NCBI RefSeq assembly: GCF_000223375.1
Contig: NC_017384.1
Span: 1-64,000 of the forward strand
From: Ketogulonicigenium vulgare WSH-001
GTDB lineage: Bacteria; Pseudomonadota; Alphaproteobacteria; Rhodobacterales; Rhodobacteraceae
Length of the DNA: 64,000 nt
Direction: 5' to 3'
Position 1 is the stretch's first letter. Each line of letters opens with the position of its first letter. The notes beneath the pieces are model-generated. The model was given only the letters and a program-made list of their open reading frames with translations. It was not told the DNA's origin and searched no databases. Positions 17,451-33,448 of the stretch are shown here, one piece after another. Both the position numbers and the translations under genes were made by a program.

Positions 17451-17452
17451 AA

Positions 17453-17477
17453 GGCGGGCCCCGCTTTGGGGCCCGCC
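17453..17477. terminator. Hairpin between convergent dnaE2 and the PIG-L gene
   Basis: A perfect 10-bp stem, GGCGGGCCCC with GGGGCCCGCC, around GCTTT. It lies two bases after the dnaE2 stop and six before the stop of the opposing gene. The minus strand is followed by TTTCAAT, the plus strand by ATTAGAT, so both tails are weak but the stem is very stable. Confidence 0.7.
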
Positions 17478-17483
17478 ATTAGA

Positions 17484-19991
17484 TCACGCCTTTTGCAGCA
17501 GGTTCGCCAGAATGCGGAACGCGCCGGGGGTCAGCTTGTCCAACTGGTGATGCAGCACCAGCGCGGTATGGGTGTGACGGCCCGCACCGACCTCGGCACT
17601 CAGCAGCGATCCTTCCAGCGGCTCCTCGCCGCGGTCGTTCATCGCCAGCAGCGACACATAGGCCGCATCCCATTCCGAGGCGAAATAAAGCCCCCGTTCC
17701 TTGTCCCAGCCCGCCCAGTCATCGGCCGAGATCACGTTCGGCTGGTTCAGCAAGGGGTGGTCGGGGGCCAGCACGGTGACGGCGGCATTCGGATCGGTCA
17801 CGCGATACCGGATCGAGGGCGAGCCGATCACCAGACGCGCGGCAGGCACCGTGTCGGGGTTCCAGCCATCCGAGGGGCGGTGATACAGTGTCACAAGGTG
17901 GCCGCCCGCCGCGATCCATTCATGCACCTCGGCAATGCGCGAGGTGAAATCGCGCCTGCGCCCCAGCGCAAAGACCCCGACCACGATCGTGTCGAAATCG
18001 CGATAGGCGCCCGATGCCATATCTTCGGGGGTCAGCTCGGTCAGATCGACCCCAAGGCGGCGGATCCATGTGGCGACATTGTCGTTGTTCGATCCGATAT
18101 AGGCGACGCGCGCCTCGGGGATCTTGGCATCGACAACCTGCACTTGGAACGCGACCTCGCTGGGCACGACAGCCTTGCCGGTATGGGGATATTGGAAGGT
18201 TTCGACCTTATAGGCGGTCTTGCCTTTCAATGTCGGGTTCAGCACCAGACGCGCCACACTCAGATCCGATGGCGGCGCAAGGCGGAAGGTTGCGGCAGTG
18301 CCAGCGGGGTCCGCATCCCCGGACAGCACCCAAGTTTCCGGCACCGGAATGACCAGATCGCCGATCGTTGCATTGGTGACGACGGCCTCGATCTCGGCGG
18401 GTTCTGCGCCGTTTTCCATGTTGAACACCAGCGCCTCGGGGCGCAGGGTCAGGGAATTTTCCGGCACGATGCGCAGGGCATCCTCGAGATCGACGACGAC
18501 CGTTACCGCGCGGCCGCCGACGCTAAAGGTCACGCGCATCCAGGCATCGCCATTGCCGCCCAGCGGGTCATATTGCGGCTCCATCGGGTTTGTCAGCGCG
18601 GCCGAGGTTGGCACATCGACTTTGACCTTGCCGTCGGTGCCTTCGGACGTGGGCAGATCGCCGGCGGTCAGCACCTCGACCAGATCAACGGTGACGGATG
18701 CGGGGGCATCGACGAGGGTGCGGATCTCGACCGATTGACCGGCAGGTACATCATTGCCGTCCACAAACGAGCGGATCTGCACGCCAGCGGCGATGCGGAT
18801 CACCTCGGCCACTTCACGCTGTTTGCGGGTCAGGCGGTGGGCAACTTGCGGTGCCAGCGTCTCGGGCAGGGCAGCGGTTGCAGCATCCAGCGCATTGGCC
18901 AAGGCGACGGCCTTTTCCAGCACAGATTCAGGATCGCCATAATCGCCATGCGCGGCGTCGATCAGGTCTTGGGCCTCGCGCAGGGCGGCGGCGCAATCCT
19001 CGGGCATGCCGTCCATCGTGGCCAGCGCGCCAACAGTGGCCAGCAACCCATCGCGGATGTCGTTTTCCGCGCCGCCCGCGCCGCCGCCGATGACGCGCGC
19101 CAGATGCAGCGGCCATTCGGTTTGCGGCTCGGGGCGCCAGCGACCCATGCCTTGGGTCAGGTGGCAGGACCGCGACCATTCGCCCATCTGCGGCCATGTC
19201 GCACCCGAGATCTTGTCCCGTTCCGGCGCAGTCAGCAGCAGGGTCTGCGGCGGGGGCGGGGTTTCGTCATCATAAACACCGCCGCCGCCGCCCCAGGCCG
19301 GGTCATACATTTTCGGCACTTCCCAAGGGGTCAGGCCCAGCTCGGTAAAGTGGTGGGTGTAAACATCATCGCGGCCCGACAGCTCGACCGCCTTTTTCGT
19401 CGCGACGGTCGCGGCGCGGTGCTGGCCGTGCTGGCCGGGCGTATCAAGGAAGCAGTTGAAAATCGCATCGGGACGATAGGCGCGAAAGGCCCAGACCATG
19501 CGTTCCAGCACGCGATCCTCGCCCCAGCGTTCAATCGTGTCGTCGGGGTCTTTGGTAAAGCCAAAGTCATGCACGGGATCGGTGGTGCCCATGCCGCCAA
19601 AGGCCAGCGCCGCATCGAGCGCGCGCGATGCCGCCTGCATTTCGCGTGTGCGCAAAACGCCCAGCGCAATGCCGCGCTCGGGCCCGATCGAGTTCTGGCC
19701 GCCTTCGCCGCGCGTCATGCAATACATCACAGGATGGATGCCATAGTTGAACCGCAGCGCCGCAAGCATACCCGATGGCTCGTCATCAGGATGCGCGCCC
19801 GTGGTCATGAACGTCACGGTCGAGGTCAGACGCTCCAGCGCGCGGGCAAGCTGGATGATCGAGGGTTCGCCCTGTTGGCGGGCAATCAATTGTAGGTCAG
19901 TCAGCGGCACTGCAAAGGCGGGAATCGCCGTGCTGGCAAGGGCTGCCGGCACCGTTGCCATGAACAGGCGCCGCGTCATTTTGATCGACAT
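17484..19991 (-). CDS. Exported PIG-L family (LmbE-like) deacetylase with long C-terminal extension
   Basis: 835 residues. The N-terminus KMTRRLFMATVPAALASTAI-PAFA is a signal peptide with twin arginines, possibly Tat. The PIG-L/LmbE zinc domain follows: AHPDDE at 66-71, RGEGGQN near 94, the LRTREM motif, and the HGQHRAA histidines near 166. This family removes N-acetyl groups from amino sugars. The C-terminal half has beta-sandwich-like segments and ends in a glutamine-amidotransferase-like domain (DFDTIVVGVFALGRRRDF, HEWIAAGGHLVTLYH). A low-complexity Gly/Pro stretch lies near 230. The start is supported by GGAGG seven bases upstream. It has its own AT-rich upstream region, so it may be a separate unit after the dehydrogenase genes. 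Exact substrate unknown. Confidence 0.85.
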   Translation of the reverse strand: MSIKMTRRLFMATVPAALASTAIPAFAVPLTDLQLIARQQGEPSIIQLARALERLTSTVTFMTTGAHPDDEPSGMLAALRFNYGIHPVMYCMTRGEGGQNSIGPERGIALGVLRTREMQAASRALDAALAFGGMGTTDPVHDFGFTKDPDDTIERWGEDRVLERMVWAFRAYRPDAIFNCFLDTPGQHGQHRAATVATKKAVELSGRDDVYTHHFTELGLTPWEVPKMYDPAWGGGGGVYDDETPPPPQTLLLTAPERDKISGATWPQMGEWSRSCHLTQGMGRWRPEPQTEWPLHLARVIGGGAGGAENDIRDGLLATVGALATMDGMPEDCAAALREAQDLIDAAHGDYGDPESVLEKAVALANALDAATAALPETLAPQVAHRLTRKQREVAEVIRIAAGVQIRSFVDGNDVPAGQSVEIRTLVDAPASVTVDLVEVLTAGDLPTSEGTDGKVKVDVPTSAALTNPMEPQYDPLGGNGDAWMRVTFSVGGRAVTVVVDLEDALRIVPENSLTLRPEALVFNMENGAEPAEIEAVVTNATIGDLVIPVPETWVLSGDADPAGTAATFRLAPPSDLSVARLVLNPTLKGKTAYKVETFQYPHTGKAVVPSEVAFQVQVVDAKIPEARVAYIGSNNDNVATWIRRLGVDLTELTPEDMASGAYRDFDTIVVGVFALGRRRDFTSRIAEVHEWIAAGGHLVTLYHRPSDGWNPDTVPAARLVIGSPSIRYRVTDPNAAVTVLAPDHPLLNQPNVISADDWAGWDKERGLYFASEWDAAYVSLLAMNDRGEEPLEGSLLSAEVGAGRHTHTALVLHHQLDKLTPGAFRILANLLQKA

Positions 19992-20056
19992 TTTTATACC
20001 TCCACTTGGCCCTGCGAATCGCGGGCAAGGGAAAGTCTAACAGCGTCGAATTAAAT

Positions 20057-20070
20057 AACTAAATTTACTT
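20057..20070. promoter_or_regulatory. AT-rich near-palindrome upstream of the PIG-L gene
   Basis: AACTAAATTTACTT is symmetric except at one position pair. It sits in a very AT-rich stretch about 65-80 bases before the PIG-L start, the expected promoter region. The same region follows the isomerase terminator, so PIG-L probably has its own promoter. The binding protein is unknown. Confidence 0.35.
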
Positions 20071-20099
20071 AATCATTATTGCGACGAATTTATGAACGC

Positions 20100-20134
20100 A
20101 AAAACGCCGCTGCACGGGAGGGCGTGCAGCGGCG
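20100..20134 (-). terminator. Strong intrinsic terminator after the exported isomerase gene
   Basis: A perfect 12-bp stem, CGCCGCTGCACG with CGTGCAGCGGCG, a 6-base loop, and a run of five T on the minus strand right after it. It lies 61 bases past the isomerase stop and ends the GMC operon. Confidence 0.85.
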
Positions 20135-20195
20135 AGGGGGCCCAAGGCGTATGAAACGGCGCGGGCCCGGAGGAGCACCCGCGCCGTCCATCCGA

Positions 20196-21047
20196 TTAGC
20201 GCGTCGCGCCTTCGGGCAGGTTGCCAGCCAGGAAAGCCGCGCCTTCTGCGACGACGACCGAGGCATCAACCGGCATGTCATGCTCGATGATATACCACTC
20301 TGCGCCAGCGGCTTCGGCGGCGGGCAGGATGGCGTCGAAATCGACAACGCCGGTGCCGAGGATCGCAAAGCCGCGCTCGGCCTCGCCTTCGCCGGTCGGG
20401 TAGTTGTCTTTGGCATGGATCGCGAACAGGCGACCGTCAAAGCGGCTGATGAATTCGGCCGGCTCGTATTCGGTGCGGGCAACCCAAGCGACGTCCAGCT
20501 CGGCCTCGAGGCCCTCGCCAGCGGCGTCGAACATGATTTCAAGACCGGTCTTGCCATCATAATCCACCAGCTCGAAAGCGTGGTTGTGATAGGCCATACG
20601 CATGTCCTGTGCAGCCAGCGTCGCGGCAATCTCGCCCAGTTCGGTGCCCAGTTCCGCCCAGCCCTCAGCGGTGGTCGGGCGCTGGTCTTCGGGCAGGAAA
20701 GGTACGGTGATGACATCGTTGCCGATGGCTTTGTTGAACGCGATCACGGCATCAACGTCGTCGCGCAGGGCGGCCAGTTGGGCGTGGGTCGAGATCGCCT
20801 CGATGCCATGCTTATCCAGCAGCGCCTTTAGCTCTTCGGCGGTGACATTCTGGGTGCCGACGGTTTCAACAGCGGTGACGCCCGCGGCGGCAACGGCAGC
20901 AAGCTGTTCGTCCAGCGTGCCAAAGTCGCGCAGCGTGTACATTTGCGCAGCGATCGGCAGGTCGGACACGGCACGCTCTTGTGCAAAGGCGGGGGCCGTG
21001 ATGGCGGTGGTTGCGGCCAAAATGGCGGCGTAACGGATAAAGGTCAT
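20196..21047 (-). CDS. Exported sugar phosphate isomerase/epimerase-like TIM barrel protein
   Basis: 283 residues of the xylose-isomerase-like TIM-barrel family (AP_endonuc_2 fold). Markers are the N-terminal AQMYTLRDFGTLDEQLAAVA strand-helix, KALLDKHGIEAISTHAQL, MRMAYHNHAFELVDYDG, and the C-terminal IIEHDMPVD metal-ligand region. The N-terminus FIRYAAILAATTAITAPAFA-QE is a clear Sec signal peptide, so the enzyme should work in the periplasm, unlike most relatives. It is the last gene of the GMC operon before a strong terminator. Location next to an exported flavoprotein suggests it acts on an oxidised sugar or glycoside there. The precise reaction is unproven. Confidence 0.8.
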   Translation of the reverse strand: MTFIRYAAILAATTAITAPAFAQERAVSDLPIAAQMYTLRDFGTLDEQLAAVAAAGVTAVETVGTQNVTAEELKALLDKHGIEAISTHAQLAALRDDVDAVIAFNKAIGNDVITVPFLPEDQRPTTAEGWAELGTELGEIAATLAAQDMRMAYHNHAFELVDYDGKTGLEIMFDAAGEGLEAELDVAWVARTEYEPAEFISRFDGRLFAIHAKDNYPTGEGEAERGFAILGTGVVDFDAILPAAEAAGAEWYIIEHDMPVDASVVVAEGAAFLAGNLPEGATR

Positions 21048-21077
21048 GATGTCCTCGTTCAGGGTAAAGGGGTTAAA

Positions 21078-21629
21078 TCAGGTGGCCCAAGCGCGCTGGC
21101 CGGGCTCGAGCGGGACATCCTCGTACATGCCGGGGACGGCCACGTAATCCAGAACTTCGGTTGCGCCGACGCGCGATGTGAAGAAGCCAAGCAGGGTCAG
21201 CTGCTTCATCATCGTATAGAAATGCGGGTTCGCTGCCGTGCCGACGGCCTTTGCCTCGACCTCGAGGTCGGTGACAATGGCGCGGCGCTGGTCGTCGCTG
21301 AGGCGGACAAACGCGCCGCCAAAGCGTTGGGTTGCCGTGCGTTCAATCGCGGCAATCCCATTGCGGAAGGTCGTGCGTTCGGTGCCGCTGTAACAATCAG
21401 CGACGAACACGGCCATAAAGGCGCCAACTTCGGCATCTATCGCACCGGGGGTATCGGTGCGGGGGATGATCACCTCGGCCAGATGGTCGAGGGTGGCGAT
21501 CTGGGCATCATCCAGCGCAAAAGTCGGCATATCCGCCGGATATTGCGCGGGCTCGGCGCTGACGCGGCTGCCAATCAGGGCCATGCCGGTCGTCGCTGCG
21601 ATCATTTGCAAAAGTGAGCGGCGATCCAT
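21078..21629 (-). CDS. Gluconate 2-dehydrogenase subunit 3 family protein (Tat-type small subunit)
   Basis: 183 residues. The start MDRRSLLQMIAATTGMALIG carries a twin-arginine type leader (DRRSLL) with a cut near VSA-EP. The body matches the gluconate_2-dh3 family: IATLDHLAEVIIPRTDTPGA near 47-66, VFVADCYS, and the KQLTLLGFFTSRVG stretch. In known enzymes this subunit carries the folded GMC flavoprotein across the membrane by the Tat path. The GMC gene lies directly upstream with a TAATG overlap, which fits. The start at 21629 has GGGAGACC upstream. No cytochrome c subunit gene is adjacent; electrons may go to a separate acceptor. Confidence 0.85.
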   Translation of the reverse strand: MDRRSLLQMIAATTGMALIGSRVSAEPAQYPADMPTFALDDAQIATLDHLAEVIIPRTDTPGAIDAEVGAFMAVFVADCYSGTERTTFRNGIAAIERTATQRFGGAFVRLSDDQRRAIVTDLEVEAKAVGTAANPHFYTMMKQLTLLGFFTSRVGATEVLDYVAVPGMYEDVPLEPGQRAWAT

Positions 21630-23317
21630 TACAGGTCTCCCTTTTTCAGCGCGTCGACGGCGAATTCGGCGGCGCGGGCGGTCAGTGCCATATAGGTCAG
21701 CGACGGGTTCACGCACGACCCCGAGGTCATGCAGGCGCCGTCGGTGACGAAGACGTTCGGGGCGTCCCAGACCTGGTTATTGCCGTTCAGCACCGAGGTT
21801 GCCGGATCGCGGCCCATACGGGCGGTGCCCATTTCATGGATGCCCATGCCGGGTGCGTAGGGCGTTTCAGTGCCCACGACATCCTTGACGCCTGCCGCTT
21901 CCAGCATGTCGATGGCGTCCTGTTTCATGTCCTTGCGCATTTCCAATTCGTTCTCGCGCAGCGAGACATCGAACGACAGGACGGGCAGGCCCCATTTGTC
22001 GGTCACGCCACGGTTCAGCGAGATCTTGTTGTCGTGATAGGGCAGGATCTCGCCAAAGGCGGTCATGTTGATGCCCCATGCGCCGGGGGTCGATAGCGCG
22101 TTTTTCAGCTCGGCCCCGATGCCCAGCTCTTCGGCAGGGCGGCTCCAGCCGCCACGGCTGGCCGAACCTTGATAGCCAAAGCCGCGGATATAATTGCGGC
22201 CCTCGTCGCCCGGCACGTTGCGGAAGCGGGGGATATAGAACCCGGCCGGGCGGCGGCCGTAGTAATACATATCCTCGTAACCCTCGATCGTGCCACGGGC
22301 GCCGACGCGGAAGTGGTGGTCCATGACGTTATGGCCGAGTTCCCCCGAGCTGCTGCCAAGGCCGCCTTCCCAGACATCCGTCGCCGAGTTCATCAAGATC
22401 CAAGTCGAGTTAAAGGTCGACGCGTTCAGGAAGACGATATTGGCGGTATATTCATAGGTGAGGCCCGTTTCGGCATCGATAATCTCGACGCCGGTGACGC
22501 GCTTGGTGTCCTTGTCATAGATCAGCTCGCGCACGATCGAGAAGGGGCGCAGCGTCAGGTTGCCGGTCGCAACGGCGGCGGGCAGGGTCGCCGATTGCGT
22601 GCTGAAATAGGCGCCATAGGGGCAGCCCAGCACGCATTTGTTACGGTACTGACAGGCCGAGCGGTGCTGTTCGGGGCGCGGCTCGGTGATGTTAGAGGTG
22701 CGCGAGTTGATCAGATAGCGCTTGCCGCCATAGGCCTGCTGAATGCGGGCGGCGACGTCTTTTTCAACGACGTTCAGCGGGATCGGCGGCAGGAACTCAC
22801 CATCGGGCAGCACGTCAAGGCCGTCGCGGTTGCCGGAAATACCGGCGAAACGTTCGACATAATCATACCAGGGGGCGATGTCACCGTAGCGGATGGGCCA
22901 GTCGATCGCGATGCCTTCACGGGCGTTCGCTTCGAAATCCATCACGCTGTGGCGATAGGTCTGGCGACCCCACATCAGCGAGCGGCCACCCACATGGTAG
23001 CCACGGAACCAGTCAAAGCGCTTTTCCTCGACATAGGGGTTTTCCTGCTCGTTCGCCCACATGCCATAGGTCGATTCTTGCAGCGGATAATCGCGGCGCA
23101 GGACGGGGAATTCTTCCTTCATCGCATTGGTCGGACGACCACGGTGGGGATAATCCCAAGCCTCTTTTTCGGCGTTCACGTAATCTTTGACGTGTTCAAT
23201 ATTACGCCCGCGTTCCAGCATCAGGACTTTCAGGCCCTTTTCGGTCAGCTCTTTGGCTGCCCAGCCGCCACTAATCCCCGATCCGACGACAATTGCGTCG
23301 TAATGCATATCCGCCAT
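21629..23317 (-). CDS. GMC-family FAD sugar dehydrogenase, large subunit
   Basis: 562 residues. The FAD dinucleotide motif VVGSGISGG lies at 10-18, then YHVGGRSLMWGRQ, a Cys-containing segment RNKCVLGCPYGAYFS near 235, and the C-terminal active-site block HEMGTARMG followed by SGSCVNPSLTYMAL. No leader of its own, so it is expected to be exported with the Tat-type small subunit encoded next. The arrangement matches periplasmic gluconate/fructose/glucoside dehydrogenases; glucoside 3-dehydrogenases belong to the same group. Three TIM-barrel or Gfo/Idh neighbours make sugar C3 oxidation plausible, but this is inference. The start has GAGAGGAAG upstream. First gene of its unit, behind a 461-base leader with an operator. 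Confidence 0.85.
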   Translation of the reverse strand: MADMHYDAIVVGSGISGGWAAKELTEKGLKVLMLERGRNIEHVKDYVNAEKEAWDYPHRGRPTNAMKEEFPVLRRDYPLQESTYGMWANEQENPYVEEKRFDWFRGYHVGGRSLMWGRQTYRHSVMDFEANAREGIAIDWPIRYGDIAPWYDYVERFAGISGNRDGLDVLPDGEFLPPIPLNVVEKDVAARIQQAYGGKRYLINSRTSNITEPRPEQHRSACQYRNKCVLGCPYGAYFSTQSATLPAAVATGNLTLRPFSIVRELIYDKDTKRVTGVEIIDAETGLTYEYTANIVFLNASTFNSTWILMNSATDVWEGGLGSSSGELGHNVMDHHFRVGARGTIEGYEDMYYYGRRPAGFYIPRFRNVPGDEGRNYIRGFGYQGSASRGGWSRPAEELGIGAELKNALSTPGAWGINMTAFGEILPYHDNKISLNRGVTDKWGLPVLSFDVSLRENELEMRKDMKQDAIDMLEAAGVKDVVGTETPYAPGMGIHEMGTARMGRDPATSVLNGNNQVWDAPNVFVTDGACMTSGSCVNPSLTYMALTARAAEFAVDALKKGDL

Positions 23318-23778
23318 ACTCGCTTCCTCTCAGGTTGCTCTTGGACTTGTTCGGACAAGACCTCTCTGGCGCTGACCGGAGGGCGGCAGCGAGAGGGCAT
23401 TGCAGGTTTGTATTGGGCGCGCCGCATATGGACCGGCGTAGCCCCTGATTTGCGATAGGCCGTATCATCGGACATGCGCGATCATGCGCTGCAAGAGGGC
23501 AGCGTTTGCGCAGGTTATGATATGGCAAAACCCGGTCATGCCTGATCCGCACCGCGGTATCAGGGCCATCTTGGGTTAATCGCACCGGGCCGGATTACGG
23601 CTGGCGCAAAGCGTTCCTATTCATGATTGTCTCTCCCTTCCGTCCGCCTCCTCCAAGGCGGTGTAACCGAATGTTACCGGTTACATGGATTTCTAGCACG
23701 ATTCGAACGTGGTTCAAAATGAAAAATGACAAGTTCGTGCAACTGTGGGTTGTTTTGCGCGGTTGCCCGCGCAAAAAC
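23318..23778. other. Long leader/promoter region of the GMC operon
   Basis: This 461-base stretch separates the Gfo/Idh gene stop from the GMC start, both on the minus strand. It holds the LacI-type operator at 23662-23686 and a small inverted repeat (CTTGT at 23346-23350, ACAAG at 23355-23359) near the GMC ribosome site. No coding frame in it looks real. The distance from operator to GMC start (about 345 bases) leaves room for a long untranslated leader. Confidence 0.55.
23662..23686. promoter_or_regulatory. LacI-type operator upstream of the GMC operon
   Basis: TGTTACCGGTTACA (23672-23685) is a near-perfect palindrome with a central CG, the usual form of LacI-family sites. An overlapping second symmetry pairs TGTAACCG (23662-23669) with CGGTTACA (23678-23685). 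The same ACCGGTTACA half appears before the ABC binding-protein gene at 31601-31610. The LacI gene at 25982-26998 is the obvious candidate ligand. Confidence 0.7.
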
Positions 23779-24903
23779 CTACTGGTTGATAGGCTGCCAG
23801 CGCCCATCCGCCTCGGACGATCGGATCGCAGCCATGATAAAGCGCAGTCCCTCGATGCCGTCTGCCAGTGTTGGCAAGGTGGCTGCGGGCTCCTCGCTGC
23901 GCAAGACGCCCGCGAAATCCTGATAAAGGGTCGCGAAAGCTTCCAGATACCCTTCGGGGTGGCCCGAGGGGACGCGCCCGATGCCGTTGCTGCCCGCGCC
24001 ATTGCGGGTGATGATCTGGGTCGGCGCGCCGAACTGGCTGAAATGCAGCTGGTTCGGGTTTTCCTGTTGCCAGTCCAGCGATCCCTTGTCGCCATAGATG
24101 CGCAGGCGCACGGAATTCTCGTGCCCAACGGCGACCTGACTGGCCCAGAGCATCCCCTTTGCCCCGCCCTCAAAGCGCAGCATGATATTGGCATTGTCGT
24201 CGACGCGGCGACCCGGAACAAAGGCGTCCAGATCGGCGCTGAGGGATGTGACCTGCAAGCCGCTGACAAAGCGTGTCAAATTATAAGCATGGGTGCCGAT
24301 ATCGGCGATGGCGCCGCCCGCGCCTGATTTCGCGGGATCGGCCCGCCAGGCGGTGCCGTTTTGCTCGGCCTCGGTCGCCTCGGTCAGCCAGTCTTGCGCA
24401 TATTCGGCCTGCACCATGCGGATCTTGCCCAGATCACCGCGCGCCACCATCTCGCGCGCGAGGCGTACCAGCGGGTAGCCGGTATAGGTATGGGTCAGCA
24501 GGAACCGCGCGCTGCCCTTGGGGGTGACGCTTGCCAGCGCCTCGGCATCCTCGAGGGTTGCGGCCAGCGGTTTGTCGCAGATCACATGGATGCCCGCCTC
24601 GAGGAACGCACGCGCAGGTCCTGTATGCATATGATTTGGCGTGACAATCGCCACAACCTCAATGCCATCGGGGCGCGCGGCCTCGGCCTCGGCCATCTGT
24701 TTGAAGTCGGTGTAGATGCGGTCTTCGGCAAGACCCAAGGCCAGCCCGCTTTCGCGCGCAACCTCGGGGCGCGAGGATAGGGCCCCCGCGACCAATTCAT
24801 ACTGACCGTCCAGACGGGCGGCAACGCGGTGAACATAGCCGATAAAGGCACCGGCACCGCCGCCGACCATCCCAAGGCGCAGGGGGCGTTTGAAATCCGA
24901 CAT
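23779..24903 (-). CDS. Gfo/Idh/MocA family oxidoreductase
   Basis: 374 residues, cytoplasmic. The Rossmann motif LGMVGGGAGAFIG lies at 9-21. Family signatures AIVTPNHMHTGPARAFLEAG and HVICDKPLAATLEDA (EKP-type catalytic Lys) are near 85-118, and the C-terminal domain has GGAIADIGTHAYNLTRFV near 195. Such enzymes oxidise or reduce sugars and their keto or inositol forms with NAD(P). The start ATG overlaps the stop of the isomerase gene (TAATG), so they are co-translated. Position in an ABC sugar-uptake operon indicates catabolism of the imported compound. It is the last gene before the GMC leader. Direction and substrate are not readable. Confidence 0.85.
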   Translation of the reverse strand: MSDFKRPLRLGMVGGGAGAFIGYVHRVAARLDGQYELVAGALSSRPEVARESGLALGLAEDRIYTDFKQMAEAEAARPDGIEVVAIVTPNHMHTGPARAFLEAGIHVICDKPLAATLEDAEALASVTPKGSARFLLTHTYTGYPLVRLAREMVARGDLGKIRMVQAEYAQDWLTEATEAEQNGTAWRADPAKSGAGGAIADIGTHAYNLTRFVSGLQVTSLSADLDAFVPGRRVDDNANIMLRFEGGAKGMLWASQVAVGHENSVRLRIYGDKGSLDWQQENPNQLHFSQFGAPTQIITRNGAGSNGIGRVPSGHPEGYLEAFATLYQDFAGVLRSEEPAATLPTLADGIEGLRFIMAAIRSSEADGRWQPINQ

Positions 24904-25958
24904 TATTTCAGGCCCAGCATTTTCAGGTTCATATCCGCATCGACGCCGGTATTGGCGAAATCGTCAAAGGCACGCTCGGTCACGCGGATGATGTGGTCGC
25001 TGATAAAGGCCGCACCTTCGCGGGCGCCATCCTCGGGGTGCTTGATCGCGCATTCCCATTCCAGAACGGCCCAGCCCTCATAGTTATATTGCGCCATTTT
25101 CGAGAAGATCGACTTGAAGTCGACCTGACCATCGCCAAGGCTGCGGAAGCGGCCGGCGCGGTCCAGCCAGCTTTGGAAGCCGCCGTAAACGCCCTGACGG
25201 CCGGTCGGGTTGAACTCGGCATCCTTGACGTGGAACATGCGGATGCGTTCGTGGTAAATGTCGATGAATTCAAGGTAATTCAGCTGCTGCAGGATAAAAT
25301 GGCTGGGGTCATACAGCATATTCGCGCGGCTGTGATTGCCGACGCTGTCCAGGAACATCTCGAAACTGATGCCGTCGTGGATGTCCTCGCCCGCATGGGT
25401 TTCATAGCACAGATCGACGCCGCATTCCTCGTAAACATCCAGAATCGGACGCCAGCGCTTGCCCAGTTCTGCGAATGCCGCCTCGACCAGACCTGCGGGG
25501 CGCTGCGGCCATGGGTAGAAATAGGGCCAGGCCAGCGCGCCCGAAAAGGTCGCTGCCGCATTCAGCCCAAGATTGGCCGAGGCTTTCGCCGCCAGCTTCA
25601 CCTGATCGATTGCCCATTCCGTGCGGGCGGCGGGATTGCCGCGCACGGCGGGGATGGCAAAGCCGTCAAACGCCTCGTCATAGGCGGGGTGAACGGCGAC
25701 CAACTGGCCCTGGATATGGGTCGAAAGCTCGGTGATCGACAGACCATGCGCGGCAACGCGGCCAGTCAGCTCATCTGCATAAGTCTTTGATTCAGCAGCC
25801 AGGCGCAGGTCAATCAGCGAGGTTTCGACGGTCGGAATCTGAACGCCTTTGAACCCCAGACCGGCCGCCCAGGCGCATATATTGTCGAGATTATCGAACG
25901 GAGCCTCGCTTCCCACGAACTGGGCAAGGAATACTCCGGGGCCTTTGAGCGTTTTCAT
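24903..25958 (-). CDS. Sugar phosphate isomerase/epimerase family TIM barrel protein (cytoplasmic)
   Basis: 351 residues, no signal peptide. The xylose-isomerase-like TIM barrel is seen in WAAGLGFKGVQIPTVE near 31, HIQGQLVAVHPAYDE near 95, the metal-ligand region CYETHAGEDIHDG near 210-222, NMLYDPSHFILQQ near 241 and FHVKDAEFNPTGRQG near 270. It ends VLEWECAIKHPEDGA. It is paired with the Gfo/Idh gene by a TAATG overlap, a pairing typical of keto-sugar and inositol-like catabolism. It lies 23 bases after the LacI gene. It is longer than and clearly distinct from the exported isomerase at 20196-21047. Confidence 0.85.
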   Translation of the reverse strand: MKTLKGPGVFLAQFVGSEAPFDNLDNICAWAAGLGFKGVQIPTVETSLIDLRLAAESKTYADELTGRVAAHGLSITELSTHIQGQLVAVHPAYDEAFDGFAIPAVRGNPAARTEWAIDQVKLAAKASANLGLNAAATFSGALAWPYFYPWPQRPAGLVEAAFAELGKRWRPILDVYEECGVDLCYETHAGEDIHDGISFEMFLDSVGNHSRANMLYDPSHFILQQLNYLEFIDIYHERIRMFHVKDAEFNPTGRQGVYGGFQSWLDRAGRFRSLGDGQVDFKSIFSKMAQYNYEGWAVLEWECAIKHPEDGAREGAAFISDHIIRVTERAFDDFANTGVDADMNLKMLGLK

Positions 25959-25981
25959 GATTTCCGTCTTTCTGCCCGTTT

Positions 25982-26998
25982 TCAGGGCCCTTCAGGCGCG
26001 GACACGGGCGCGACGGAATCGCGCACGATCAGCTTCGTTTCAAATTCATGAACGGGCGCGCTGGGCGTACCGCTCAATAGATTGACCAACAGGCGCATGG
26101 CGGCGCGTCCCATTTCAAGACGCGGCTGTTGCACGGTGGTTAAGGCGGGTTCAAAGGCTTGGGCGACCAGAATGTCGTCAAAGCCGATAACGGAAACATC
26201 GCTCGGCACACGCAGACCGGCGCGGCGCAATTGGCTGATTGCGCCAATTGCCATCTGGTCGCTGGCGGCCAGCACGGCGGTAAAGGGCAGGCCGGTGTCC
26301 AGCAGGGCCTGCGCGCCGCGACGGCCAGCCTCGATACTGAAATCGCCCCAGACGGTCAGGCGCGGGTCGACCGGCAGGTCTGCCTCGCGCAGTGCGCGCA
26401 GGTATCCGGTGTGGCGGTTGATCGCCAGATATTCACCCTCGACCCCGCCGATATGGGCGATTTTGCGGTGGCCCTGCGCGATCAGATAATCGACCGCATT
26501 CTTTGCAGCGGCGGCGTTATCAATGCGTACAGTGGGCAGATCGACATCGGGGATGGCCTCGGACGCCACAACCATAGGCGGAGTGAGGCCGGGCCGCTGG
26601 TCGATGTCGGCGGGCAGGTTGCGCACCATCAGGATCAGCCCGTCGGCCTGCCGTTGGCGCACCATGTCGATATAGTTGCTGATGCGCGCCTCGTCGTTGC
26701 GCGCATCAGCCATCAGCACTTTATAACCCGTCTCGGATGCGACTTCCTCGATCCCCTTATAGATCTCTAGGTAGAACGGGTTCGAAATGTCGCGGACCAG
26801 CAAAATGATGGTCTGCGTCGATTGCTGCCGGAACGACCGCGCCTGTGCATTCGCGACAAACCCCACCTGTTTGACCACGCCCAGCACGTGATCAAGGGTT
26901 TCGCGGTTCAGCTTTTCAGGCTGCCCCAGCGCGCGCGAGACTGTGGCGGTCGAGACACCGGCAAGCCTTGCGACATCGCGGATCGTTACGGGTTTCAT
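25982..26998 (-). CDS. LacI family transcriptional regulator of the sugar locus
   Basis: 338 residues. The N-terminal helix-turn-helix TIRDVARLAGVSTATVSRAL lies at 5-24 with the hinge helix NAQARSFR near 51-58. The rest is a periplasmic-binding-protein-like effector domain (IILLVRDISNPFYLEIYKG, VSVIGFDDILVAQAFEPALTTV, PRLEMGRAAMRLL). It is encoded inside the ABC operon, three bases after the second permease gene. Two LacI-type sites with the same half flank the locus, one before the binding protein and one before the GMC gene. This makes it the likely local repressor, induced by the transported sugar or a product. Confidence 0.9.
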   Translation of the reverse strand: MKPVTIRDVARLAGVSTATVSRALGQPEKLNRETLDHVLGVVKQVGFVANAQARSFRQQSTQTIILLVRDISNPFYLEIYKGIEEVASETGYKVLMADARNDEARISNYIDMVRQRQADGLILMVRNLPADIDQRPGLTPPMVVASEAIPDVDLPTVRIDNAAAAKNAVDYLIAQGHRKIAHIGGVEGEYLAINRHTGYLRALREADLPVDPRLTVWGDFSIEAGRRGAQALLDTGLPFTAVLAASDQMAIGAISQLRRAGLRVPSDVSVIGFDDILVAQAFEPALTTVQQPRLEMGRAAMRLLVNLLSGTPSAPVHEFETKLIVRDSVAPVSAPEGP

Positions 26999-27001
26999 CT
27001 T

Positions 27002-27973
27002 TTACACACGCAGTTGTTTCTGGCGCCCATAAAGAAGCATCATCAGCAGCAAGGTGACACCGAAAACCATCTGACGCGCCCAGAAATCCATATTCAGGGT
27101 GATCAGAACGCTTTGCAGCAGCGTCAGCGCAACCGCGCCCGCCATGGTGCCCCAATAGCCGCCAATGCCCCCCGCCAGCGATGTGCCACCGATCACCACC
27201 GCGATCACCGAGGGCAGCACATATTGATCGCCAACGCTGATGAACGAGCTGCCGGTATAGCCGATCACGCAAAGTCCGGTCAGACCCGCGAACAGGCCCG
27301 ACAATCCATACAGCAGCACACGCACGCGGCGCACCGGAATACCGACCAGCGTGGCGGCGCGTTCATTCGCGCCCATCGCATAGACGGCATGACCGAATGC
27401 GGTGCGGCGCAGCAGGAACCACATGAACAGCGCCAGCGCGACCCAAACGAACAGGATGCCCGGAATGCCGAACGCCAGCGGCTGGTTCACAAAGCTCGCC
27501 AGCGCAGGCGCGGCGCGGCCCGAGGGGACGCCCTGCGAATAGACCACCAGTGCGCCTTGCAGCACCGCCGTCATACCCAGCGTCATGACAAGGGGCGGGA
27601 TGCGCACGATGGTGACGCCGATGCCGTTCACGATCCCGACCAGAAACGGCACGCCAAGGGCCATCAGCATCGCAATACCGATGCCGCTGTTCATGCCGTT
27701 CATCGCGTTTCCGGCCAGCACAGCGCCCAGCGAGATCATCGCCCCCACCGACAGGTCGATCCCCTCGCGTCCGCCAAGGATCACAAGGTTCTGGCCCGCC
27801 GCGACAATGCCCAAAATGGCGGCCACGGTCAGCAGGCTGACGATTTGACGGCCACGGGCAAAGCCGGGCGAGATCAGCTCGCCAATGATCAACAGCGCGA
27901 CCGAGGCAAGAATGGCCAGTGTCAGCGGGTCCAGCAAAATGGCGCGAAGGCGGTTTTGTTTGGTATTTTCCAT
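27002..27973 (-). CDS. Ribose-type ABC transporter permease (RbsC-like), second
   Basis: 323 residues with eight to ten hydrophobic segments. Family signatures are NLVILGGREGIDLSVGAMIS (the usual ISGGIDLSVG with an extra Arg-Glu) and VIGGTSLAGGIGGYWGTMAG. It is the second of two permease genes that presumably form a heterodimer in a sugar importer of the CUT2 type. The start is 10 bases after the upstream permease stop. It ends three bases before the LacI gene. Confidence 0.9.
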   Translation of the reverse strand: MENTKQNRLRAILLDPLTLAILASVALLIIGELISPGFARGRQIVSLLTVAAILGIVAAGQNLVILGGREGIDLSVGAMISLGAVLAGNAMNGMNSGIGIAMLMALGVPFLVGIVNGIGVTIVRIPPLVMTLGMTAVLQGALVVYSQGVPSGRAAPALASFVNQPLAFGIPGILFVWVALALFMWFLLRRTAFGHAVYAMGANERAATLVGIPVRRVRVLLYGLSGLFAGLTGLCVIGYTGSSFISVGDQYVLPSVIAVVIGGTSLAGGIGGYWGTMAGAVALTLLQSVLITLNMDFWARQMVFGVTLLLMMLLYGRQKQLRV

Positions 27974-27983
27974 GATATTTTCC

Positions 27984-28928
27984 TCAGCGCCGGGTGACCA
28001 GAACGCCGCCGGCCAACGCCAGCAACACGATCAGCCCCTGCACCAGAGTCTGATATTCGAACGGCAGACCGGCAAAGAAGATCACATTGCCGATCATCCC
28101 CAGCACCAATGCGCCCAGGACCGAGCCGATAGCACTGCCAAAGCCGCCCGCCAGCGCGGTGCCGCCCAGCACAACGGCCGAGATCGACGACAGCGCCAAA
28201 GCCTGACCCAGCAGCGGGTCGCCCGAGGCGGTCTCGCCCGTCAGGCACAGCGCCGCCAGCGATGCGAAAAGGCCAGCCAGCATGTAAGAGCCGATGCGGA
28301 TGCGATCCAGCGGCAGGCCGCTTTGGAAGGCGCCGGTGCGGTTGCCGCCAACCGCCAAAATCTGCGCATGGGCGACGGTACGGCCAAAGATCAGCGCGAA
28401 GGCGACGCCGATCAGCAGCACCCAAGCCACTGTTGGCACGCCCAGCACCAGCCCGCCATAGGTGCGCCAATAGTTGGATGGCACGGCAAGGCCAGCGGTC
28501 GGCAGCACCCAGATTGCCAGCGCTGCGAACAAAATGCCGGTGGCAAAGGTGGTGACAATCGGCTGCAGCCGCAATTTGGCGATCAACAGCCCGTTGAACA
28601 GCCCGCAGGCAAGCCCGACCAGAATGCCCGCCGCAATACCGGTCAGAATCGCAATATCGGTGCCGCCCAGCGACGCAATCACCGTCACGGTGACCACGTT
28701 CGACAGCGCAACCGTGCTGCCGACCGACAGGTCGATGTCACCCGACAGGATCACATAGGTCTGGCCAATCGCGACCAGCACCAGCGGCAGGAATGTCGAC
28801 AGGTTCGACCTGATCGCACGCGGGCTGGTAAAGCTGGGCTGCAAGATCGCATTCACCACGATCAGAATGACCAATACCACAAGGGTGATCATCCACGGGT
28901 TTTTGCGGAAAAGGGTAAGCGCGTTCAT
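27984..28928 (-). CDS. Ribose-type ABC transporter permease (RbsC-like), first
   Basis: 314 residues, polytopic. Signatures are TYVILSGDIDLSVGSTVALS near 55-75 and VVLGGTALAGGFGSAIGSVLG near 240. It shares the fold with the next permease but is clearly diverged. The ATG overlaps the stop of the ATPase gene (ATGA). Works in the inner membrane with the RbsA-like ATPase and the RbsB-like receptor. Confidence 0.9.
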   Translation of the reverse strand: MNALTLFRKNPWMITLVVLVILIVVNAILQPSFTSPRAIRSNLSTFLPLVLVAIGQTYVILSGDIDLSVGSTVALSNVVTVTVIASLGGTDIAILTGIAAGILVGLACGLFNGLLIAKLRLQPIVTTFATGILFAALAIWVLPTAGLAVPSNYWRTYGGLVLGVPTVAWVLLIGVAFALIFGRTVAHAQILAVGGNRTGAFQSGLPLDRIRIGSYMLAGLFASLAALCLTGETASGDPLLGQALALSSISAVVLGGTALAGGFGSAIGSVLGALVLGMIGNVIFFAGLPFEYQTLVQGLIVLLALAGGVLVTRR

Positions 28929-30415
28929 GCGGCATCTCCGAAGGCGGCGCGGGCCAGATTGACCGCATTAATATCATCGCCGCGCAGTTCGGCCGAAATC
29001 TCGCCGCCGTTGAACACCAGCACGCGGTCGGCGTAGTCGAGGATCTCTGCATCCTCGGACGAATAGAACAGGATTGTGGCACCTGCATCGGCCTGCGCGC
29101 GCATCAGCGCGAACAAATCGGCCTTTGCGCCAAGGTCGATGCCCTTGGTCGGATCATCCAGCAGCAGCACATCGGGGCTGGTCGCCAGCCAACGCGCGAT
29201 AAAGATCTTTTGCTGATTGCCGCCTGACAACGTGCCAATTGCGGCATCAAGCCCCGCATATTTGGTACGCAGACCCGCTGCGGCCTCGGCCATGCGCGGG
29301 CGCAGGCTGCGGTGGTTCACCAGCAATTTCTTTTCGCGCACGGTGGTCGCCGCGACAAGGTTTTCAAAAATCGACCGCCCGCCGAACGACGCATCACGCC
29401 CGCGGTCGCCCGAGATATAGGCGAACCCTTGGTGGACGGCCTGGCCGGGCGCACGCAGGGAAAGCTGCTTGCCGCCATGTGCAACGCTGCCGCTGCTAAA
29501 GGGCATCGCGCCGAACAGACCTTGCAGCAAGGCGGATTGACCCTGTCCTTGCAGACCGGCAAGGCCCAGAATCTCGCCGCGATGCGCCTCAAAGCTGACG
29601 CCGCGCAGCCGCGCATTCGTCGCGCCCGAGACTTTCAGCGTGACCTCGCTTGCGCGGCCTGCGGTGCGCGGCGGCGGGGCAGGGACATCGCCGACCATGT
29701 GATGCACGACTTCGTCGCGGTTGGTTTGCGCCGTTTCCAGCGCGGCCACGGTCTTGCCGTTGCGCATCACGGTGATGCGGTCACAAACGGCAAAAACCTC
29801 GTCCAAACGGTGCGAGATCATGATCGTCGAGGCGCCTTCGGCCTTGCGGGCCTGAAGGATTTCGAAAAAGCGTGCAGCTTGGCGGCCATCCAGTGCGGCG
29901 GTGGCCTCGTCCATGATCATCAGGCGCGGTTTTTTGGCGAAAACCTTGAGAATTTCGACAATCTGGCGTTGATCGGGGGGCAGATCGCCAACGGTCGCAT
30001 CGGGGGTCAGGCCCTCGCCGGACACACCATCAAACAAAGCGATCAGCGCGGCGGCTTCGCGGTTCAGCGTGGCACGGTCAACAAACCCGGCGCGGCGCGG
30101 CTCGCGGCCCAAAAAGATATTCTCAGCGACAGAGCGCTGGGGGATCAGGCTAAGTTCTTGATAAAATAGCGCAATGCCGCGTGTTTCAGCGTCACGCGGG
30201 CCGGTGATAACAGTGGGCACGCCCTCGATCTGCAATTGACCGCCATCGGCCAGCACGGTGCCAGCGATGGATTTGCACAGGGTGCTTTTGCCGCAGCCAT
30301 TGGCGCCCATCAGGGCATGAATCTCGCCTTTGGCAACCGAAAGACTGCCATCCGTCAAAGCGCGGACCGCGCCAAAGGATTTGGTCAGGCTTTGGGCCTC
30401 GATATAAGTGAACAT
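28925..30415 (-). CDS. Ribose-type ABC transporter ATP-binding protein (RbsA-like, two nucleotide domains)
   Basis: 496 residues made of two fused ABC domains, typical of CUT2 importers. Domain 1 has Walker A MGANGCGKSTLCK near 36 and Walker B LMIMDEATAALD, but a degenerate signature LPPDQRQIVEI, as is common in RbsA. Domain 2 has a degenerate Walker A (GLQGQGQSALL) with a good signature GTLSGGNQQKIFIARW and Walker B VLLLDDPTKGID. Only one composite site is therefore likely to hydrolyse ATP well, normal for this family. It lies between the binding-protein gene and the permeases, with a 111-base gap before it that holds a hairpin. Confidence 0.9.
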   Translation of the reverse strand: MFTYIEAQSLTKSFGAVRALTDGSLSVAKGEIHALMGANGCGKSTLCKSIAGTVLADGGQLQIEGVPTVITGPRDAETRGIALFYQELSLIPQRSVAENIFLGREPRRAGFVDRATLNREAAALIALFDGVSGEGLTPDATVGDLPPDQRQIVEILKVFAKKPRLMIMDEATAALDGRQAARFFEILQARKAEGASTIMISHRLDEVFAVCDRITVMRNGKTVAALETAQTNRDEVVHHMVGDVPAPPPRTAGRASEVTLKVSGATNARLRGVSFEAHRGEILGLAGLQGQGQSALLQGLFGAMPFSSGSVAHGGKQLSLRAPGQAVHQGFAYISGDRGRDASFGGRSIFENLVAATTVREKKLLVNHRSLRPRMAEAAAGLRTKYAGLDAAIGTLSGGNQQKIFIARWLATSPDVLLLDDPTKGIDLGAKADLFALMRAQADAGATILFYSSEDAEILDYADRVLVFNGGEISAELRGDDINAVNLARAAFGDAA

Positions 30416-30481
30416 ATTCTCTCCGCGCGGATAATCGCGTCCATGGCCCTGCTCGATAGGCAGCGCATACCGGTGGCAAAG

Positions 30482-30510
30482 GCTGCGGCCGGGGGAAATC
30501 CGGCCGCAGC
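30482..30510 (-). terminator. Intercistronic hairpin after the binding-protein gene
   Basis: A perfect 11-bp stem, GCTGCGGCCGG with CCGGCCGCAGC, and a 7-base loop. It starts 17 bases past the stop of the binding protein and precedes the ATPase gene. No T run follows, so it is more likely a partial attenuator or mRNA 3'-end protector that raises receptor levels over the rest of the operon. Confidence 0.6.
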
Positions 30511-30526
30511 GTCCCGGGAGGGATGA

Positions 30527-31546
30527 TTACTGGAAGAATTCCGCAGCTTCTTCGGGGGTGACGATATCGGTCACTGACCAGTAGCCGGGCTGACCTTCGG
30601 CGGCTGCCAAGCTGTCTGCCAGGTTGTCGTTATCCACGAAGGGGATCGGAATGTAGATCGCATTGCCGTTTGCACCGGTAAACACGTCGTCGCGGAACTC
30701 GCGGCCTTGCAGACGCAGGACAGCCACGTTCAGCGCGCTGCCCATCACACCCGGAGGGTTCACCGATGCGCCCGAATTCAGGCCCAGCTCGGACCAGCGT
30801 TCCATAAAGTCTTTACGGATTTCGCCGGTTGCCGCGATGTCGGTGGTGCGGCCGGCAGCCTCGATCGCGCGCCATGCGCCATCCGCCATACCGTCCTGGA
30901 CCCAAACGCCGTTCAGGTTGGGATAGGTTGCCAGCAGGTTCTGCATGACTTGCTGACCTTGGGCCTGGTCCCAGTTTGCGTTCGCCTGGTTCAGCACGGT
31001 GATGCCGGGGTATTGGGCGAAAGCCTCGGTATAGCCTGCAACGCGCGCCTCGTTGGCGGGGTTGCCTGCGACGCCATTGATCGTGACGACATTGCCTTCG
31101 CCGTTCAGCGCTTTGGCCAGCCAATCGGCCGATTGGTACGCCCATGCCTTTTGGTCGATACCGACATAGATCGCATCGGGCGAGGTCACTTCGGCGTCGG
31201 TTGCGATGACCAGAATGCCAGCCTCGGCCGCCTGCGCGAAGACCGGATCGAATGCGGTCGGGCTTTGCGGGTTGATGATGATCGCATCAACGCCTTGGTT
31301 GATGAAATTGCGGATGTGACCGATCTGACCCTGCACATCGACGTTACCGCTTTGGACGATAACCTCAACATTGACGCCTTGCTCTCCCCAGGCGGCGGCA
31401 GCGGCTTGCGCCTCTTCGATCATCTGGGTGCGCCATTCGCTTCCCACAAAACCGTTCGACAGACCGATGGTGAAGCTATCTTGGGCATAGGCAGCCGACG
31501 ACAGCGCGATGACCGATACAGCGGCCAGCGTAAAATGTTTCTTCAT
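30527..31546 (-). CDS. Sugar ABC transporter substrate-binding protein (RbsB-like)
   Basis: 339 residues with a Sec signal peptide (HFTLAAVSVIALSSAAYA-QD, cut near 20). The mature protein is a Peripla_BP_4 type receptor: FTIGLSNGFVGSEWRTQMI, GVDAIIINPQSPTAFDP near 95-115, VYVGIDQKAWAYQSADWLA, and GVWVQDGMADGAW. The start ATG 31546 has a strong GAGGAGGAG upstream; codons back to 31615 are leader. First gene of the minus-strand ABC-lacI-isomerase-Gfo/Idh operon, with a LacI-type operator 51-64 bases before the ATG. The sugar is not predictable from sequence; the neighbours suggest a modified or oxidised sugar. Confidence 0.9.
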   Translation of the reverse strand: MKKHFTLAAVSVIALSSAAYAQDSFTIGLSNGFVGSEWRTQMIEEAQAAAAAWGEQGVNVEVIVQSGNVDVQGQIGHIRNFINQGVDAIIINPQSPTAFDPVFAQAAEAGILVIATDAEVTSPDAIYVGIDQKAWAYQSADWLAKALNGEGNVVTINGVAGNPANEARVAGYTEAFAQYPGITVLNQANANWDQAQGQQVMQNLLATYPNLNGVWVQDGMADGAWRAIEAAGRTTDIAATGEIRKDFMERWSELGLNSGASVNPPGVMGSALNVAVLRLQGREFRDDVFTGANGNAIYIPIPFVDNDNLADSLAAAEGQPGYWSVTDIVTPEEAAEFFQ

Positions 31547-31596
31547 GATCTCCTCCTCTACCCGATCGGTCATGCTCCGCCGGGTTGGATAAGTTG

Positions 31597-31610
31597 TGCA
31601 ACCGGTTACA
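31597..31610. promoter_or_regulatory. LacI-type operator before the sugar ABC operon
   Basis: TGCAACCGGTTACA has a central CG and near-perfect symmetry. It shares ACCGGTTACA with the site upstream of the GMC operon. It lies 51-64 bases before the binding-protein ATG, where a repressor would cover the promoter. Confidence 0.75.
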
Positions 31611-31823
31611 TTCACCTGTCAATTAGAATTTGCGGCGCGTTTTGCGCGGGGCGGCGGACCGCCGGGAAAGCTGACCGGAATCAAAGGCTTCATCATCGGC
31701 GAGATTTGACGGGGATCGGCAGAATTCTTTCCAAATGAGAAACAGTGAACGCCGAATCCAATGGATAATGCTGCGCGGGAACGTGTGCTAACCAGCCTCA
31801 TCCACCCATGAAAGGGATTGAAA

Positions 31824-32228
31824 ATGGTTGATACACGCACGGCGCCTGTTGCGCTGCTGATCTTGCGGGTTGTTCTGGGCCTGTTGTTTCTGGCCCATGT
31901 CTGGTTGAAGATTTTTGTATTCACGCCTGCGGGCACGGCCGGGTTCTTTGCCTCGCTCGGGCTGCCGGGCTGGTTCGCCTATGTGACGATGCTGTGGGAA
32001 ATTCTGGGCGGCCTCGCGCTGATTCTGGGCGTCTGGCCGCGTGCGGCCGCCCTTGCGATGGTGCCGCTGCTGCTGGGCACGATTGTCACGGTGCACGGCC
32101 CTGCAGGCTTTTTCTTTGACAGCCAATATGGCGGTTGGGAATATCCGGCCTTTTGGATTGTCGCGCTGATCGTGCTGGCCCTGTCGGGTGACGGGGCAAA
32201 GGCCCTGCGTCCGACGCCCCTGCGCTAA
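31824..32228 (+). CDS. DoxX family membrane protein
   Basis: 134 residues with four hydrophobic segments. The family pattern is seen in LRVVLGLLFLAHVWLKIFVF, then TAGFFASLGLPGWFAY, WEILGGLALILGVWPR and the final VALIVLALSGDGAKAL. DoxX proteins are small inner-membrane proteins. Some take part in redox or stress membrane complexes, but the role here is not defined. The start ATG 31824 has AAGGGA seven bases upstream. It stands between the sugar operon (divergent) and ychF. Confidence 0.8.
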   Translation: MVDTRTAPVALLILRVVLGLLFLAHVWLKIFVFTPAGTAGFFASLGLPGWFAYVTMLWEILGGLALILGVWPRAAALAMVPLLLGTIVTVHGPAGFFFDSQYGGWEYPAFWIVALIVLALSGDGAKALRPTPLR

Positions 32229-32318
32229 ACCATCTGGCCCCGGCAGGCCATCTTGCTTGCCGGGGCCGCATGGCCTAAGAGCGCCCTAGCTTTTATTCAA
32301 AGGGAAAAGGGGTCGCCG

Positions 32319-33416: not shown

Positions 33417-33420
33417 TGCG

Positions 33421-33448
33421 AAAAGGGGGCCGATTGGCCCCCTTTTTT
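33421..33448. terminator. Bidirectional terminator between ychF and ndh
   Basis: The stem GGGGGCC with GGCCCCC around GATT is preceded by AAAA and followed by six T. It works on both strands and overlaps the last codon of the opposing dehydrogenase gene. Confidence 0.9.

Follow-up and report, generated by a model that had tools for sequence, protein, structure and literature searches.

A predicted two-compartment locus for non-hydrolytic use of O-beta-glucosides in Ketogulonicigenium vulgare WSH-001

Locus and proposed pathway

Ten minus-strand genes at positions 20196-31546 of the window (the whole 64,000-nucleotide stretch analysed, positions 1 to 64,000 of contig NC_017384.1 of Ketogulonicigenium vulgare WSH-001) form one locus, which we interpret, with a probability of about 0.85, as a regulated, two-compartment system that uses O-beta-glucosides without hydrolysing them. 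A GMC/Gluconate_2-dh3 complex exported by the twin-arginine (Tat) route would oxidise the C3 hydroxyl of the glucosyl residue in the periplasm, and an exported O-glycoside beta-eliminase (OGE) would remove the aglycone by Mn2+-dependent beta-elimination, yielding 2-hydroxy-3-keto-glucal. This compound, or 3-keto-glucose as its hydrate, would enter the cytoplasm through a CUT2 ABC importer, where a hydratase (HYD) would add water to give 3-keto-glucose and a Gfo/Idh enzyme (Gfo) would reduce the latter to glucose. A LacI-family protein would repress both transcription units, with one operator each. The enzyme pathway has already been published and the locus is a new example of it; added here are a LacI-type palindrome before each of the two units, a leader pattern fitting the compartment split and importers that depend on lineage. 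K. vulgare is a soil bacterium that serves in the industrial production of vitamin C.

All genes named in the first-pass annotation of this DNA, made from the sequence alone, were located by open reading frames and a Pfam scan, each on the minus strand, which confirmed its gene inventory. The gene order is SBP, ATPase, permease, permease, LacI, HYD, Gfo, a 461-bp gap (23318-23778), GMC, Gdh3 and OGE; the gap divides the genes into two units with a similar operator before each, and six-frame translation revealed no long frame for a hidden gene within it. The ten genes are as follows.

30527..31546, minus strand: SBP, CUT2-type periplasmic sugar-binding protein with Sec-like leader (Peripla_BP_4, E 6.9e-59; 75-77% identity to Rhizobiaceae loci)
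28925..30415, minus strand: CUT2 double ATPase (ABC_tran in two stretches; AraG/RbsA-like, under the cut-offs; 67-70% to Rhizobiaceae loci)
27984..28928, minus strand: CUT2 permease 1 (BPD_transp_2; 72-74% to Rhizobiaceae loci)
27002..27973, minus strand: CUT2 permease 2 (BPD_transp_2; 77-79% to Rhizobiaceae loci)
25982..26998, minus strand: LacI-family regulator, predicted to control the locus (LacI and Peripla_BP_3; 57-60% to Rhizobiaceae loci)
24903..25958, minus strand: HYD, 2-hydroxy-3-keto-glucal hydratase orthologue by sequence, leaderless, cytoplasmic (8ro4, E 9.4e-182)
23779..24903, minus strand: Gfo, Gfo/Idh/MocA enzyme, predicted 3-keto-glucose reductase (GFO_IDH_MocA domains; 3v5n, E 1.1e-137; 58-60% to Rhizobiaceae Gfo)
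21629..23317, minus strand: GMC flavoprotein, predicted catalytic subunit of a glycoside 3-dehydrogenase (GlycDH-like; GMC_oxred_N/C; without a leader of its own)
21078..21629, minus strand: Gdh3, Gluconate_2-dh3 small subunit with twin-arginine leader MDRRSLLQ (PF13618, E 2.7e-37)
20196..21047, minus strand: OGE, exported O-glycoside beta-eliminase orthologue by sequence, Mn2+ TIM barrel with Sec-like leader (8bvk, E 1.4e-92)

The SBP start, corrected from the sequence, is probably 31546, since a GTG start at 31615 would place an operator within the gene; that of the Gluconate_2-dh3 gene, read from the translation, is at about 21629. The LacI protein scored 327.9 bits against the CytR model, under its cut-off of 436.

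Related loci were fetched by OGE similarity; the comparison used the best 80 of 572 relatives, and shares among the 81 loci obtained with that of K. robustum therefore describe close relatives only. Most fetched loci (L numbers below) extend 10 kb either side, some ending at contig ends, and genes were counted from matches spanning at least half of the query. Gdh3 was found in 75 loci, GMC in 74, HYD in 71, Gfo in 70 and a DUF1080 gene in 65. The same ten genes occur in 9 of the 80, all from Agrobacterium or Rhizobium (L067, L069, L070, L086, L087, L089, L090, L093 and L107), in the order SBP-ATPase-permease-permease-LacI-HYD-Gfo-OGE-GMC-Gdh3 and with importer proteins about 67-79% identical to those of the window. 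The K. robustum locus (L116) lies on a plasmid and has the exact order of the window at 76-92% identity. Since K. robustum keeps the order exactly and the nine Rhizobiaceae loci depart from it only in where OGE lies, the association of these genes is not due to chance. OGE occurs without GMC in L056, L112 and L113, all cut by contig ends, and neither GMC nor Gdh3 was found in L074. The annotation of K. robustum gives the locus genes generic names only, and the interpretation proposed here would turn such a cluster in the sister species into a complete, testable glycoside pathway.

Eliminase and hydratase

Sequence comparison identifies the exported TIM barrel as an orthologue of AtOGE, the O-glycoside beta-eliminase of Agrobacterium. 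As a single sequence it matched PDB entry 8bvk without gaps at E 1.4e-92, with 146 of 250 residues identical (58%), and a profile from 16 OGE relatives matched the same entry at E 9.5e-123. The entry is deposited under the name 'Xylose isomerase' and was taken to be that of AtOGE because of the match and the residue numbering; an eliminase almost identical to it is encoded in Agrobacterium locus L069 (E 1e-162). In AtOGE the Mn2+ ligands are H132, D163, H189 and E233, and H134 is catalytic (PMC10628242). OGE keeps the corresponding metal-site residues H154, D185, H211 and E255 and the catalytic H156, and likewise the residues of the AtOGE alternative site, E39, H66 and E161.

The cytoplasmic TIM barrel is, judged by alignment, an orthologue of 2-hydroxy-3-keto-glucal hydratase, matching PDB entry 8ro4, deposited under that name, over its full length at E 9.4e-182 with 252 of 350 columns identical (72%). 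The first-pass annotation had taken both TIM barrels for isomerases, a naming replaced here by eliminase and hydratase; against the IolE models the two proteins scored 53.4 and 71.7 bits and did not reach the cut-off of 290. The C-glycoside eliminase structures 7DNN, 7EXB and 7EXZ were not among the 10 PDB matches of the OGE profile, and no gene for a second subunit of the C-glycoside eliminase type was found among the locus open reading frames scanned with Pfam. The wider proposal of the same annotation, a 3-keto-glycoside pathway divided between the two sides of the inner membrane, gains strong support from this orthology to Agrobacterium enzymes of solved structure.

Oxidase and reductase

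The GMC protein is 75-76% identical to the GMC proteins of the nine Rhizobiaceae loci, and Gdh3 is 47-51% identical to their partner subunits. Residues C222, C228 and C232 of GMC align with cysteines of fructose dehydrogenase, which in that enzyme bind an iron-sulphur cluster. Judged by its neighbours, the GMC protein of the Rhizobiaceae loci is probably the GlycDH of PMC10628242. In 65 of the 81 loci the DUF1080 gene encodes a relative of a protein matching the 3-keto-disaccharide hydrolase family (PF06439), which agrees with C3 oxidation. Elsewhere in the genome, a second GMC/Gluconate_2-dh3 pair (C1:88000-91400; L003 7989-11345) is accompanied by a cytochrome c gene and adjoins a LacI-type regulator, with a gene for a MalK-like ATPase near.

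Gfo is 58-60% identical to the Gfo proteins of the Agrobacterium and Rhizobium loci, where its gene is adjacent to HYD as it is here, and its best solved relative is 3v5n (E 1.1e-137). It did not reach the cut-offs of the models for levoglucosan dehydrogenase (122.7 bits, cut-off 650) or IolG (71.3 bits, cut-off 355), and matched the BT_2158 model weakly (28.8 of 750 bits).

Export and uptake

Leaders were assessed with a simple hydropathy window on the N-terminus. A hydrophobic N-terminal stretch was present in 81/81 OGE and 22/22 SBP proteins, and the threshold was passed by 0/75 GMC and 0/71 HYD proteins. Gdh3 has an RR pair within the first 40 residues in 75/75 cases and passed the threshold in 63. 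This pattern, OGE with and HYD without a leader, agrees with the compartment split. GMC would be exported via its Tat partner Gdh3; of the 'exported GMC' of the first-pass annotation, export is thus retained through the partner, and an export signal of its own is absent. An RR pair within the first 40 residues was also seen in 27 of the 81 OGE proteins, and the export route of OGE may therefore vary.

A CUT2-like importer was found in 22 of the 81 loci, a symporter of the major facilitator superfamily (MFS) in 49, both in 0 and neither in 10. Two divergent CUT2-like types occur in alphaproteobacterial loci and the MFS symporter in gammaproteobacterial ones; because the split follows phylogeny, the lack of loci with both is weak evidence. 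The putative cargo of the importer is 2-hydroxy-3-keto-glucal.

In 26 of 29 fetched loci, the OGE-like proteins of other family members have an ATG no more than 12 residues from where the barrel begins, and a cytosolic version of OGE appears to exist. In another alphaproteobacterium, an OGE-like gene (L117 7473-8201; 37%), seemingly leaderless, lies near HYD and Gfo and may belong to a form of the pathway that is cytoplasmic throughout. Tentatively, and at slightly less than even odds, we propose two pathway topologies: one with periplasmic oxidation and elimination, in which the reactive enone 2-hydroxy-3-keto-glucal (or 3-keto-glucose) would cross the membrane through importers swapped between lineages to reach a cytoplasmic hydratase and reductase, and another in which a leaderless OGE-like enzyme would cleave the glycoside inside the cell. 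If so, the CUT2 importer described here would be the first, to our knowledge, whose natural cargo is an unsaturated keto-sugar.

Transcriptional control

The sites considered here, and the gene that follows the locus, are listed below.

31597..31610, no strand: LacI-type palindromic operator 1, before the importer unit (TGCAACCGGTTACA; at most 1 mismatch to TGYAACCGGTTRCA)
23672..23685, no strand: LacI-type palindromic operator 2, in the gap before GMC (TGTTACCGGTTACA / TGTAACCGGTAACA)
20105..20134, minus strand: predicted intrinsic terminator closing the GMC-Gdh3-OGE unit (12-pair stem with 10 G-C pairs, then a T run)
17484..19991, minus strand: PIG-L, apparently a neighbour outside the system (Tat-like leader; 204 bp downstream of OGE)

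A search of the 3.28 Mb genome (three contigs of 2,766,400, 242,715 and 267,986 bases) for TGYAACCGGTTRCA with at most one mismatch returned only two places, 31597-31610 and 23672-23685, and the LacI protein of the locus would bind at both. K. robustum keeps both sites, including the one before SBP. Operator-like sites were scored within 300 bp in 22 loci, namely the window, K. robustum (L116), 10/10 Rhizobiaceae and 10/13 Rhodobacteraceae; L034, L035 and L039, where HYD and the importer were not found, stood outside the test, and in both the window and L116 operator 2 is more than 300 bp away and so was not scored. All ten Rhizobiaceae loci have two like sites that agree at 12 or 13 of 14 bases and lie 30-54 bases before SBP, eight of the ten Rhodobacteraceae loci tested have one operator-like site before HYD, and none was found in L041 and L042 (2/22). 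With 400 permuted motifs, the real one included, the next best occurred in 9 loci and the mean was 0.12; this figure is not an independent probability, because the loci are related and the motif was taken from the window. The locus supplies a putative two-operator LacI regulon as a test case.

Between operator 2 and GMC lies a leader of about 350 nt in both Ketogulonicigenium species (window 23318-23671, minus strand; L116 11376-11719). Directly behind the operator is an inverted repeat, CCGCCTTGGAGGAGGCGG, invariant in both species; after it come a stretch resembling a ribosome site and a small open frame (about 10 codons). Much of the remaining leader diverges. Folding of the leader was no better than that of shuffled sequences (z -0.94), and no Rfam family reached its gathering score in 17300-32300. 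In the same region 18 terminator-like stems were found against a shuffle mean of 13.9 (sd 4.1), a number not clearly above chance; the predicted terminator at 20105..20134 has the most G-C-rich stem of the 18.

Relation to described systems

Kastner et al. in 2024 reportedly described a non-hydrolytic glucoside pathway and glycoside utilisation loci with the same four-step chemistry and Mn2+ lyases, and a 2024 Nature paper reportedly treats a Bacteroides pathway of glycoside use that begins with periplasmic C3 oxidation. A. tumefaciens has a GlycDH-OGE-HYD-Gfo operon for oxidation, elimination, hydration and reduction (Bitter et al., 2023; PMC10628242); C3 oxidation and elimination are reported there for the A. 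tumefaciens and Rhizobium enzymes, hydration and reduction on evidence that the article itself describes as preliminary. The first-pass remark that no described system with this exact set was known therefore fails for the enzymes. Shared with that operon are the orthologous eliminase and hydratase and the presence of GMC and Gfo in the cluster, and with the fetched Agrobacterium and Rhizobium loci also the CUT2 importer, LacI and the Tat subunit. OGE lies downstream of Gdh3 in K. vulgare, whereas in these loci it lies between Gfo and GMC. Compared with the A. tumefaciens operon, the genes form two units here with an operator-like site each, and importer and compartments fall outside the main text of PMC10628242, in which 'periplasm' and 'transporter' both have 0 occurrences. 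The levoglucosan operon of Bacillus smithii follows an analogous order of oxidation, elimination, hydration and reduction with different enzymes, and the C-glycoside eliminases (PuCGE) are TIM-barrel eliminases with a like Mn2+ site (PMC10628242).

In Bacteroides, BT2158 is a periplasmic glycoside 3-dehydrogenase (PMC11300592); periplasmic C3 oxidation opens glycoside use in that pathway as it would in K. vulgare, but the first oxidase here is a predicted GMC flavoprotein and Gfo resembles the BT_2158 model only weakly. The LacABC and DUF1080 system of Caulobacter likewise combines periplasmic C3 oxidation by a membrane-bound dehydrogenase with subsequent bond cleavage in the periplasm (PMC9007349). 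There the dehydrogenase has a third component and cleavage is proposed for the DUF1080 hydrolase, whereas in K. vulgare OGE is the predicted cleaving enzyme and the locus also encodes uptake, hydration and reduction; no DUF1080 hydrolase is encoded beside its dehydrogenase. The fate of the keto-sugar (3-ketogalactose) in the Caulobacter lactose system is called unknown (PMC9007349), and for the fate of the product after periplasmic C3 oxidation the K. vulgare locus offers an answer, in that elimination would take place outside and be followed by uptake and by hydration and reduction inside.

Weighing of the interpretation

Several observations weigh against the proposed pathway. The four chemical steps are ascribed to the K. 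vulgare proteins from published work on orthologues, and the C3 regioselectivity of GMC is predicted from its neighbourhood and its likeness to the Rhizobiaceae GMC; its solved relatives, fructose and glucose dehydrogenases, are remote (E about 1e-34 to 1e-29). The third component of LacABC dehydrogenases is a cytochrome, and a Pfam scan of the larger open reading frames in 17484-34709 gave no cytochrome c gene. No nearby DUF1080 gene was found in K. robustum (L116) or the nine full Rhizobiaceae loci, and the only PF06439 match of the K. vulgare genome lies far from the locus (C1:1074720-1075298; L137). The simple hydropathy test passes only 63 of the 75 Gdh3 proteins and fails for Gfo, of which 43/70 exceed the threshold, the first Rossmann strand being itself hydrophobic. 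A reversed-pattern control gave 4 operator matches per strand against 2 for TGYAACCGGTTRCA, so that the sites are no more numerous than expected by chance; what is telling is their placement. Finally, among 387 genomes of the class, K. vulgare counted, HYD was found in 41, GMC in 5 and OGE (E<=1e-55) in 1, counts that may be low as the searches score the best few candidates per genome; HYD and Gfo must therefore also work without this OGE.

An unlikely, though the best surviving, alternative is that the substrate is another sugar or alcohol (galactoside, inositol, sorbose-type) than a phlorizin-kind beta-glucoside, with the same chemistry at another position of the molecule or a simple periplasmic dehydrogenase. 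Inositol-pathway models also match the TIM-barrel and Gfo proteins, far under the cut-offs, and sorbose oxidation is a known trait of K. vulgare. In Caulobacter, LacABC-type dehydrogenases that have DUF1080 genes as neighbours are tied to the use of lactose, salicin and raffinose, and Halomonas titanicae BH1 (L050) is among the lactose users with such a pair (PMC9007349). Against this stand the orthology of OGE and HYD (58% and 72%) to enzymes of 3-keto-glucoside elimination and 2-hydroxy-3-keto-glucal hydration and the retention of the OGE active-site residues.

Less probable still are two independent systems side by side, in which CUT2, HYD and Gfo would generally scavenge free keto-sugars and a separate periplasmic oxidation-elimination module would release the keto-glycal for others or to the medium. 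The far greater frequency of HYD than of OGE or GMC in the class genomes favours this view, and so does the composition of HYD loci: 43 matches were obtained in the 41 genomes, and the 20 loci fetched have a Gfo relative close by in 20/20 cases and a CUT2-like importer in only few. The cytoplasmic HYD/Gfo pair is thus the widespread core, for which the periplasmic front end looks like one of several feeding routes, and this speaks against the ten genes as an indivisible unit. A family-level search found OGE matches in 44 of 150 genomes, K. vulgare included, all those elsewhere at most 38% identical. The 461-bp gap parts the two halves, and their affinities differ, OGE being sister to three Rhodobacteraceae (node support 0.0) and the importer block closest to Rhizobiaceae by identity among the fetched loci. 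Trees of OGE, GMC, HYD, Gfo and Gdh3 gave mixed sister groups; Gfo is sister to Rhizobiaceae, and HYD is nearest Rhizobiaceae by distance, yet its tree sister is from Rhodobacteraceae. A mosaic origin of the locus is only suggested by these sequences. A single regulated pathway is nevertheless preferred, because each half is preceded by a like operator that has no other genomic occurrence at up to one mismatch, as each half is in K. robustum, and because nine Rhizobiaceae loci keep the ten genes together, with OGE located between Gfo and GMC.

Very improbable is the amino-sugar pathway of the first-pass annotation, in which the exported PIG-L protein would deacetylate an N-acetyl sugar, either ahead of its oxidation or following it. 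The Tat-like leader of PIG-L and the position of its gene, 204 bp downstream of OGE in the same orientation, speak for this, but the predicted 12-pair terminator lies between the two genes and PIG-L was found in none of the 80 fetched loci nor in K. robustum, where the gene following the OGE unit encodes a radical SAM protein. PIG-L was accordingly rejected as a member of the locus (0/81 loci; relatives in 27 of 150 family genomes, K. vulgare included). The protein has 835 amino acids with a long C-terminal region behind its Tat-like leader; its relatives in the 26 other genomes of the 150 are 33-47% identical, and a paralogue of 45% identity is encoded at C1:1744776.

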